Of a stretch of 64,000 nucleotides of DNA, positions 9,938 through 59,246 are shown one piece after another. The DNA comes from Sneathia vaginalis (GTDB lineage: Bacteria; Fusobacteriota; Fusobacteriia; Fusobacteriales; Leptotrichiaceae): contig NZ_CP011280.1 of NCBI RefSeq assembly GCF_000973085.1, positions 336,642 through 400,641 of the forward strand, read 5' to 3'. Made by a program: the position numbers and the translations under genes. How positions within the stretch are numbered: the stretch's first letter is position 1; each line of letters opens with the position of its first letter. The notes beneath the pieces are model-generated. The model saw only the letters and a program-made list of their open reading frames with translations. It ran no database searches and had not been told where the DNA came from.

Positions 9938-9945
9938 ATTATTGA

Positions 9946-10018
9946 CAAACAGGGGTGCTGTAAAAAGCTGAGATTATACCCTTAACCTGATACAGGTAAT
10001 ACTGACGTAGGGAGTTTA
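9946..10018 (+). ncRNA. TPP (thi-box) riboswitch aptamer
   Basis: The conserved thi-box blocks appear in order: GGGGTGC, GCTGAGA, ACCC, AACCTGATACAGGTAAT, and CGTAGGGA. The leader precedes a ThiXYZ-type transporter, so thiamine pyrophosphate would switch off uptake of a thiamine precursor. Flanking bases (about AAAC at the 5' side and GTTT at the 3' side) can close helix P1. The boundaries are estimated from these pairings. Confidence 0.94.
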
Positions 10019-10045
10019 TGTATTTTTTTATTGCATTTTTTTACT

Positions 10046-56831: not shown

Positions 56832-58310
56832 ATGTTCGGTTATTTACAAAAAATTGGAAAAGCCTTGATGGTTCCTGTTGCAGTATTACCTGCAGCGGCA
56901 GTTCTTATGGGAATAGGTTATTGGATTGACCCTGTTGGTTGGGGTAGTAATTCACAACTTGCAGCATTTCTTATTAAATCAGGAGCAGCAATAATAGACA
57001 GTATGCCTATATTATTTGCAGTTGGTGTTGCTTTTGGTCTTTCTAGAGATAAAAATGGTGCTGCAGCTTTAACAGGACTTGTAGCATTTTTAGTTGTTAC
57101 TACATTACTTTCAACTAATGCTGTTGCACAACTTACAAATACTCCAGTTGAAAATGTTTCACCTGCATTTGGAAAAATAAATAATCAATTTATAGGTATT
57201 CTATGTGGGGTTATATCTGGAGAATTATACAACAGATTCTATAATATTGAATTACCTAAGTTTTTAGCATTCTTTAGTGGTAAGAGATTTGTTCCTATTA
57301 TTACATCAATTGTAATGTTAGTAGTGTCATTTATTTTACTATACGTATGGCCAGCAATTTACTCAGCATTAGTTAGTTTTGGTATAAAGATTGCAACATT
57401 AGGACCTGTAGGTGCAGGGATTTATGGATTCTTTAATAGACTTTTAATACCAGTAGGACTACACCATGCATTAAATTCAGTTTTCTGGTTTAACGTTGCT
57501 GGTATAAATGATATAGGAAGATTCTGGGGATCACCTGAATTAGCATATGCCGATTTACCAGAAGCTGTAAAAGGAGCTTATCATGTTGGTATGTATCAAG
57601 CAGGATTTTTCCCTATTATGATGTTTGGTCTATTAGGAGCTTGTGCAGCATTTATTAAGACTTCTAAGCCACAAAATAGAAATAAGATAATGTCAATTAT
57701 GGTGGCAGCAGGATTTACTTCATTTTTCACAGGAGTAACTGAACCTATAGAATTTGCATTTATGTTTGTTGCACCAGTACTATACTTAGTGCACGCAATC
57801 TTAACAGCTATATCAGTGTTTATAGCAGCAAGCTTTAATTGGGTAGCTGGATTTGGGTTCTCTGCAGGGTTTGTTGACTTTGTATTATCATCAAGATTAC
57901 CAAATGCACATAAACCATACATGCTTATACTTTTAGGAATAATATTCTTCGTTCTTTACTATGTAATATTTACTACTTTAATAAGAGTATTTAATTTAAA
58001 GACACCAGGTAGAGAAGATGATGAAGAAGGTACTGAAAAAGTAAGAAAAACAAAATTAAATCATAATGCATTAGCAACTGCTTTAATACCATTACTTGGT
58101 GGTTTGGAAAATATAGAAGAAATAGATTGTTGTACAACAAGACTAAGATTAACAGTTAAAGATAGTTCTGTTATAAACGACAAAGAAATAAAGAAACTAG
58201 TTCCTGGTATATTAAAACCAAATAAAAAAGCAGTACAAGTAATTATTGGACCTGAAGTAGAATTTGTTGCTGATGAAATTAGAAATTATATTGACAAAAA
58301 ATCTATATAA
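56832..58310 (+). CDS. nagE: PTS EIICB for N-acetylglucosamine or glucose
   Basis: A 492-residue permease: an EIIC glucose-superfamily domain (1-390, MVPVAVLPAAAVLMGIGYW, PVGLHHALNSVFWF, GVTEPIEFAFMFVAP) and a C-terminal EIIB (about 415-490) with phosphocysteine Cys434 in DCCTTRLRL. No fused EIIA is present, so a separate glucose-type EIIA is required; the orphan EIIAs in this window are fructose-type and probably do not serve it. The GLHHALNSVFWF region favours GlcNAc specificity over glucose. AGAGGAGG precedes the start. The ROK repressor at 7172 is a possible regulator. Confidence 0.85.
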   Translation: MFGYLQKIGKALMVPVAVLPAAAVLMGIGYWIDPVGWGSNSQLAAFLIKSGAAIIDSMPILFAVGVAFGLSRDKNGAAALTGLVAFLVVTTLLSTNAVAQLTNTPVENVSPAFGKINNQFIGILCGVISGELYNRFYNIELPKFLAFFSGKRFVPIITSIVMLVVSFILLYVWPAIYSALVSFGIKIATLGPVGAGIYGFFNRLLIPVGLHHALNSVFWFNVAGINDIGRFWGSPELAYADLPEAVKGAYHVGMYQAGFFPIMMFGLLGACAAFIKTSKPQNRNKIMSIMVAAGFTSFFTGVTEPIEFAFMFVAPVLYLVHAILTAISVFIAASFNWVAGFGFSAGFVDFVLSSRLPNAHKPYMLILLGIIFFVLYYVIFTTLIRVFNLKTPGREDDEEGTEKVRKTKLNHNALATALIPLLGGLENIEEIDCCTTRLRLTVKDSSVINDKEIKKLVPGILKPNKKAVQVIIGPEVEFVADEIRNYIDKKSI

Positions 58311-58319
58311 AGTTAAAAT

Positions 58320-58408
58320 AGAAGTGAAGATGGATTTATCCATACTGGTAATTTCTATGAATACTGAATGAGAGTTTAAGCGTAATGATAAGTACGTCAG
58401 ACATAGAG
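58320..58408 (+). ncRNA. Candidate structured leader RNA upstream of the DUF3800 gene
   Basis: The 140 bases between nagE and the DUF3800 gene fold into nested pairings that I traced by eye. Hairpin ATGGA/TCCAT is at 58330-58343. A long-range helix joins TTCTATG (58353-58359) with CATAGAG (58402-58408, one wobble). Inside it CTGA (58364-58367) pairs with TCAG (58397-58400), and CGTA (58381-58384) pairs with TACG (58393-58396), stacked directly on it. A terminator follows immediately. Several conserved RNA motifs named after DUF3800 are known upstream of such genes; this may be one, but I cannot match a consensus without a model search. Confidence 0.5.
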
Positions 58409-58440
58409 CCACTCAATTTAAAAATGAGTGGTATTTTTTT
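58409..58440 (+). terminator. Attenuator-like terminator just before the DUF3800 gene
   Basis: CCACTCA (58409-58415) pairs perfectly with TGAGTGG (58425-58431) around a 9-base A/T loop, followed by TATTTTTTT. It ends one base before the AAGGAG ribosome site of the next gene, so it could end nagE transcription or act as a regulated attenuator for the DUF3800 gene. Confidence 0.85.
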
Positions 58441-58450
58441 AAGGAGAATT

Positions 58451-59125
58451 ATGAATTTATATATATTTTCAGATGAATCTGGTGTATTTGATAAGAAACA
58501 CAATGTTGTTTTTGTGTTTGCAGGAATAGTATTTACAGATAAGAATAGTGTTCTAAAGAGTATGAATAAGTACATCAATGTAGAAAGGCATATAAAAAGG
58601 AAGTTAAATATGCCAAAAGATATAGAGCTAAAAGCAACTATGTTAAATGAAGATAATAAAAGAAAATTATTAAGATCTATAAAGTGTGATAGAAGATTTT
58701 TTGTTGTCATAAATCAAGAAAAAGTTTTTGATAGGATTTTTGATGATAAAAAAAGTAAACAAAGATACTTAGATTATGCATACAAGATGGGAATAAAAAG
58801 AATGTTAGAAAAAATGGGTGTTGATTTAAGTCAAATCCATAATTTATACATTTACTGTGATGAACATACAATTGCAAGTAATGGAGTTTATGATTTGAAA
58901 ACAGGTATATATAGGGAATTAAAAATAGGGACAGAAAATTTTGAATATAACTTCATAACTAAGCCCATATTACCTAATTTACAGACAGTAACAGTTACAT
59001 ATTGTGATTCTAAAGAAAATGCCCTAATTAGATATACAGATATATTAGCTAATAGACTTTTTAATATATTAAGAAGTAATAAGGTCGTAGAAAACAAAAA
59101 AGATATAATAACAAGGTTGCCGTAA
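58451..59125 (+). CDS. DUF3800 domain protein
   Basis: A 224-residue protein with the DUF3800 layout: an N-terminal strand carrying acidic residues (MNLYIFSDESGVF, Asp8 and Glu9), FAGIVF, ELKATML, LYIYCDEHT, and the C-terminal DSKENALIRYTDILANRLF (in pieces), where Asp residues would complete an RNase H-like metal site. The family is widespread in mobile and defence-linked loci but has no settled function; a nuclease role is inference. ATG 58451 after AAGGAG is preferred over the open frame from 58385, which runs through the terminator hairpin. tRNA-Cys follows. Confidence 0.8.
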   Translation: MNLYIFSDESGVFDKKHNVVFVFAGIVFTDKNSVLKSMNKYINVERHIKRKLNMPKDIELKATMLNEDNKRKLLRSIKCDRRFFVVINQEKVFDRIFDDKKSKQRYLDYAYKMGIKRMLEKMGVDLSQIHNLYIYCDEHTIASNGVYDLKTGIYRELKIGTENFEYNFITKPILPNLQTVTVTYCDSKENALIRYTDILANRLFNILRSNKVVENKKDIITRLP

Positions 59126-59130
59126 AACAC

Positions 59131-59160
59131 TTGACAAACTCATTATTAATTTTGTATAAT
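59131..59160 (+). promoter_or_regulatory. Strong promoter of tRNA-Cys
   Basis: Consensus TTGACA (59131-59136), an 18-base spacer, and consensus TATAAT (59155-59160), 11 bases before the tRNA 5' end. It is the best promoter match in the window. Confidence 0.85.
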
Positions 59161-59171
59161 CTTCTTTGTAC

Positions 59172-59246
59172 GGCAGCATGGTCGAGGGGCTTAGGCAGAG
59201 GTCTGCAAAACCTTTTACATCAGTTCGAGTCTGATTGCTGCCTCCA
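59172..59246 (+). tRNA. tRNA-Cys (anticodon GCA), CCA encoded
   Basis: A complete cloverleaf: acceptor GGCAGCA pairs with TGCTGCC; the anticodon stem GAGGT/ACCTT encloses loop CTGCAAA with anticodon GCA; the T arm ATCAG/CTGAT encloses TTCGAGT. The discriminator base T (position 73) is the expected tRNA-Cys identity base, followed by encoded CCA. It has its own promoter and terminator, so it is transcribed alone. Confidence 0.97.

Follow-up and report, generated by a model that had tools for sequence, protein, structure and literature searches.

Introduction

Several systems are known in which a small RNA and the protein that it controls are encoded side by side. In the AbiF/RCd22 system of a C. 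difficile prophage, a sigma-A promoter drives an RNA of about 100-130 nt that ends at a terminator and is followed by a promoterless gene expressed from a read-through message, and the RCd22 RNA neutralises AbiF both in cis and in trans (PMC12373285). Type III toxin-antitoxin systems have the order RNA, terminator, toxin (PMC5086642), and phage PhiTE evades one of these, ToxIN, by means of an RNA mimic, pseudo-ToxI (PMC3475682). DUF3800 proteins, for which an RNase H fold with a rearranged active site has been reported (PMC10910872), are found at class 2 CRISPR loci (PMC10910872, PMC12669027). None of the papers that we read states a function for the RNAs associated with DUF3800 genes.

We describe here a DUF3800 gene of Sneathia vaginalis and the structured RNA that precedes it, both located in a 64,000-nucleotide stretch of DNA that was analysed as a whole and to which we refer as the window. 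The RNA is a free-standing transcription unit by its computed promoter and terminator, and its relatives are found on either side of DUF3800 genes as well as apart from them.

Results

The region between nagE and the DUF3800 gene contains a match to RF02969 (DUF3800-I RNA) at 58319-58442 on the + strand, as are all of the window features described here. The match was found with cmscan at 64.1 bits against a gathering score of 44.2, spans the full model (1-115), and is the only one in the 1.33 Mb genome; the suggestion of the sequence-only reading that a known DUF3800 RNA motif might lie here is thus borne out. The window RNA scores low relative to other members (64 bits, with up to 109 elsewhere) and its 5' hairpin is weak; all helices and the terminator are present, with no essential difference from the model. 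The window also contains a TPP riboswitch at 9941-10030 (67.1 bits).

A sigma-70-type promoter (TTGACA-17-TAAAAT, 11 of 12 matches) is situated at 58291-58319 inside the end of nagE, with its -10 end abutting the RNA, and transcription is predicted to start near 58325. In the Rfam alignment the RNA begins with a 5' hairpin, P1 (58325-58350), which has two non-standard pairs in the window, and continues into a junction (58354-58407) composed of an outer helix (58354-58359/58402-58407) and an inner helix (58364-58366/58398-58400). Within the junction are a short hairpin A (58367-58376, AAT-GAGA-GTT) and a hairpin B (58380-58397) with an invariant UUAA just before it. The RNA closes with an intrinsic terminator (58408-58440) that has an 8-pair stem with one G-U pair (58408-58415/58425-58432), a 9-base loop, and seven T at 58434-58440. 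This terminator is absent from our terminator scan because the scan was limited to loops of 3-8 bases. The ribosome site of the DUF3800 gene (AAGGAG, 58441-58446) follows directly after the seven T.

The structure is well supported by covariation. When 61 members are aligned by sequence without reference to structure, 94.6% of cells are paired and 21 of the 33 pairs show two-sided changes; none of 500 shuffles reaches the same level of covariation, and structures that are slid along the alignment fall to 28-43%. With 80 members (78 distinct) fitted to the model, an alignment that is biased toward structure, the figures are 95.1% and 27 of 33 pairs. P1 covaries with 95% of its cells paired, every pair of helix 2 shows two-sided changes, hairpin A is paired in 100% of cells, and hairpin B is paired in 96% with two-sided changes at four of its six pairs; the terminator helix also covaries in relatives. 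The folding energy is modest (z -2.39, with 4 of 200 shuffles as good), so it is conservation rather than energy that provides the proof of structure. The sequence features described without knowledge of the family are present, and the helices proposed there correspond to RF02969 helices (58354-58359/58402-58407, 58364-58366/58398-58400, and 58381-58384/58393-58396) that covary among the 78 distinct relatives; the terminator recognised ahead of the ribosome site is likewise real. The additional pair 58353/58408 would occupy G58408, which the terminator stem also uses. Both P1 and the hairpin at 58367-58376 had been overlooked.

The further proposal that TGAG and CTCA pair to break the terminator, and so constitute a switch, does not hold. 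The two tetramers are indeed complementary, but relatives do not conserve this: the TGAG in question lies inside hairpin A, 86 of 309 antiterminator cells (28%) are paired among the 80 aligned members, and a full antiterminator is present in one of the 80, the window itself.

Relatives were gathered with an RNA core pattern, which favours canonical members and yielded 22 viral-contig and 33 genome loci, all of which are RF02969 members. In 58 of 66 loci, orphans included, the -10 of the best-scoring sigma-70 promoter ends at one and the same position relative to the RNA, and the window shares this register with 57 of the 65 others. The register is also kept at all nine loci of the downstream type, with scores of 8-12 against a background mostly of 6-8. 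On the promoter register and the relatives we reject the reading that the region is merely the 3' UTR of nagE.

Where the RNA is 5' of the gene, DUF3800 usually starts about 5-25 nt past it, and in the window the separation is 8 bases, a space too small for a promoter. The RNA is situated 3' of DUF3800, on the same strand, in Streptococcus phage Javan110, Enterococcus, Ligilactobacillus, Exiguobacterium, Fructilactobacillus (at 41.2 bits, slightly below threshold), and several Lactobacillales chromosomes. The proteins of this downstream type have DDSG rather than DESG and cluster together inside the diversity of the 5'-type proteins, which indicates that the RNA switched side yet remained with the gene. 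In Javan110 (L077:2619-3681) the DUF3800 gene, in addition to having the RNA 3' of it, shares 8 bases with the end of a Cro/CI-type regulator gene upstream, whose product is possibly an additional protein regulator.

The association of RNA and gene is close when approached from the protein, as the RNA is found with eight of nine phage and plasmid relatives examined (one at 41 bits, under threshold; H3 and H9 were left out) and with all eight clade members in 396 Lactobacillales genomes. Approached from the RNA, DUF3800 adjoins at 23 of the 33 genome loci (in some it is truncated by a contig end), remnants are present at two (L055 and L057), and there is none at eight; at least eight whole genomes carry the RNA with no detectable DUF3800, and Mycoplasma prophages also hold the RNA without the gene. 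Orphan RNAs form 94.8% of their pairs and partnered RNAs 95.8% (P 0.19). Some orphans could be recent remnants. At L055:1330-1600 and L036:1052-1100 the RNA is followed by the first DUF3800 codons only (MNIFVYSDESGVFDS..., MDLFV...), and these are apparently scars of a lost gene whose RNA was retained. In genome G073 (L015:1501-1618) the RNA ahead of a broken DUF3800 has decayed to 76% of pairs, while another copy lying 1.4 kb further along is intact. Toxin-antitoxin or related genes adjoin orphan RNAs at L017/L030, L107, L027, L003/L005/L006, and L004/L013; these neighbours include SocA/Panacea together with a PemK/MazF-like toxin, HicAB, RelB/YafQ together with an acetyltransferase, and a RelA/SpoT protein that matches PADLOC PDC-S33.

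A different setting is found on three viral contigs of 69 kb, 172 kb, and 26 kb (L018:1309-1416, L020:3864-3969, and L023:4560-4665, respectively), where the RNA lies amid tRNA genes and has no recognisable promoter or terminator. This arrangement is in keeping with action of the RNA in trans, and these copies are possibly counter-defence RNAs.

The DUF3800 gene (58451-59125) encodes a 224-residue protein with the motif SDESG at residues 7-11. It matches PF12686 with an E-value of 4.4e-13 and a score of 50.6 bits against a curated cut-off of 21, which places it in the family; no other DUF3800 gene is present in the genome, and this one gives the RF02969 member the DUF3800 neighbour typical of the RNA family. 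An AlphaFold2 model built from an alignment with 33 relatives has a mean pLDDT of 91.5, and its best solved matches in Foldseek are RNase HII (E 2.2e-5, probability 1.00, TM 0.43-0.56). D8, D137, and D197 are invariant among the relatives and residue 9 is either E or D, as expected for a DE-D-D nuclease, and by its modelled fold we regard the protein as a putative RNase HII-like nuclease. A protein-profile sequence search of the PDB gave no match, and none of the PADLOC models matches the window protein.

In phage and plasmid records DUF3800 follows the endolysin gene, often close to the integrase gene, and it is also found in a satellite phage. In the window, a perfect promoter and a tRNA-Cys gene (59131-59243) are directly 3' of DUF3800, and a PP-loop gene also lies downstream. 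A congener (G091) has the module elsewhere, and its copies of the same tRNA-Cys and PP-loop genes have other neighbours, from which we conclude that the module is a variable insert in the window.

DUF3800 genes of another clade, with the motif VDESG, are mostly without RF02969, and those of Lactobacillales prophages carry another structured RNA directly 3'. This RNA is located on the - strand at L113:1177-1330, L119:1198-1341, and L138:2577-2730, and is present also at L137, L139-L141, L145, L146, and L164-L173. It contains the motif GTAAGYTGCCTGTRTGGTARTC (degenerate in L169-L173), has its own promoter and terminator, and is uncatalogued: none of the Rfam families, searched at E up to 1, matches it in L113 or L119. 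A blast search with it against plasmids gave no match. Our model of it, R3, detects it in all 10 of the viral-contig relatives that were gathered through their proteins only (five of them served as seeds of the model), and has high-scoring matches in three of the 396 Lactobacillales genomes, one of these without DUF3800 and with transposase genes on both flanks. A weak R3 match (L089:2249-2366, + strand, E 9e-5) lies 3' of an Oscillospiraceae DUF3800 gene; it is preceded by a perfect TTGACA-17-TATAAT promoter. This second RNA class shows two-sided changes at 27 of 46 pairs, in an alignment fitted to the structure that has eight distinct rows from few related sequences. The topology of this RNA and its GUAAGC-stem-UGUGU-stem-GUC arrangement resemble the DUF3800-I core, UUAAGCG-stem-UGUAA-stem-GUC, such that both fit a common hairpin pattern of UAAGC-stem-UGURW-stem-GUC. 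The likeness in topology and motif hints that the two belong to one RNA superfamily.

Next to other DUF3800 subfamilies no RNA was detectable, including those of Fusobacteriales at L154 and L156, and all Rfam models, those for other DUF3800 classes among them, gave nothing at gathering scores beside the RNA-less DUF3800 genes. One locus, L155, resembles a foreign GC-rich contig.

Discussion

The reading toward which we lean, with modest confidence, is that the RNA of about 115 nt and the RNase HII-like DUF3800 protein are partners, and that the RNA is most likely an antitoxin. Transcribed from the promoter and stopped at the terminator described above, the RNA would fold, bind to the nuclease and hold it inactive. 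In the 5' type, translation of the nuclease probably depends on transcription that continues past the RNA terminator, because the few bases after the RNA hold no promoter of its own, and expression by read-through would keep the RNA in excess. A fall in RNA supply, for example on takeover of the cell by a competing phage, would then free the nuclease, and the pair may thereby serve in phage exclusion. A strain-specific DUF3800 gene (subfamily unspecified) was scored essential in a Legionella Tn-seq study (PMC7811196), which is a poor fit to a simple toxin, and some DUF3800 genes may behave otherwise.

Among the alternatives, the one that survives best is that DUF3800 depends on the RNA, as cofactor or guide, for finding or cutting its target, making the protein an RNA-directed nuclease rather than an inhibited one. 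An RNase H-like nuclease with a structured, conserved RNA to one side or the other would suit such a role, as would the inclusion of DUF3800 proteins in some class 2 CRISPR loci, and we consider it rather unlikely. However, a variable guide-like segment is not seen in the RNA, in which the core is conserved and variation is confined to the covarying helices, and a cofactor would be useless in genomes without DUF3800, where orphan RNAs are nonetheless intact. A nuclease that can be lost while its RNA is kept speaks more for an antitoxin than for a cofactor.

A second alternative, that this is a general small RNA of mobile elements acting on other transcripts, with DUF3800 as one of several cargo genes, could draw on the toxin-antitoxin genes that adjoin orphan copies. 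We think it improbable: such genes are frequent at prophage ends regardless, the RNA variants track the protein clades, and in about two thirds of the genome loci gathered by RNA, DUF3800 lies a short and constant distance away. It is more doubtful still that the RNA gene serves chiefly, in the manner of tRNA genes, as a place where mobile DNA inserts or is exchanged, for although near-identical RNAs occur with differing cargo and with IS and integrase genes close by, the covariation and promoter conservation require a working RNA.

We strongly disfavour the remaining alternative, that of the sequence-only reading, in which the RNA is a leader controlling the DUF3800 gene in cis as an attenuator or riboswitch, since the position of the 5'-type terminator immediately ahead of the ribosome site is outweighed by an antiterminator in one of 80 members, by the RNA's own promoter, by its location 3' of the gene in one clade, and by its intact solitary occurrence elsewhere. 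Neither a conserved upstream position nor a conserved pairing exclusive with the terminator, as a leader would have, was found. The word attenuator is apt only in the weak sense that the terminator may limit DUF3800 expression through partial read-through.

Returning to the antitoxin reading, we also put forward, as a tentative extension that may well prove too broad, the idea that DUF3800 nucleases, as RNase HII-like effectors, constitute together with one superfamily of small structured RNAs (DUF3800-I and the second RNA class) a new and widespread kind of RNA-protein toxin-antitoxin or phage-exclusion system, with the viral RNA copies acting as counter-defence. The linkage to either side of the gene, the intact orphans, the RNase HII-like partner, the location at prophage ends, and the viral copies in tRNA clusters together pose a specific and cheap question, namely whether the RNA neutralises the protein in trans. 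If it does, then RNA-regulated toxins would gain a new effector fold, and the second RNA class would extend the idea to further DUF3800 clades.

The known systems with which this locus can be compared each share some of its features. The Cas12a2-associated DUF3800 proteins are TPR fusions encoded in CRISPR loci, whereas the protein of the window has one domain only, and its gene adjoins that of a small RNA. The 5' type, including the window, has the order RNA, terminator, and nuclease gene of the type III systems ToxIN and AbiQ, an order from which the 3' type departs, and the viral DUF3800-I copies recall the pseudo-ToxI of PhiTE. However, the fold of DUF3800 is RNase HII-like and not ToxN-like, and DUF3800-I is a single, non-repetitive structured domain without the toxin-cleaved tandem repeats that make up classical type III antitoxins, a point that counts against an antitoxin role. 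AbiF/RCd22 (RF03085) differs in that its protein is unrelated (Abi_2, Cas13-like), its RNA motif is different, and DUF3800-I also occurs 3' of its gene. Nonetheless, AbiF/RCd22 is prophage-borne and has the same anatomy of promoter, RNA, terminator, and gene as the 5' type of DUF3800-I locus, and is the nearest tested precedent.
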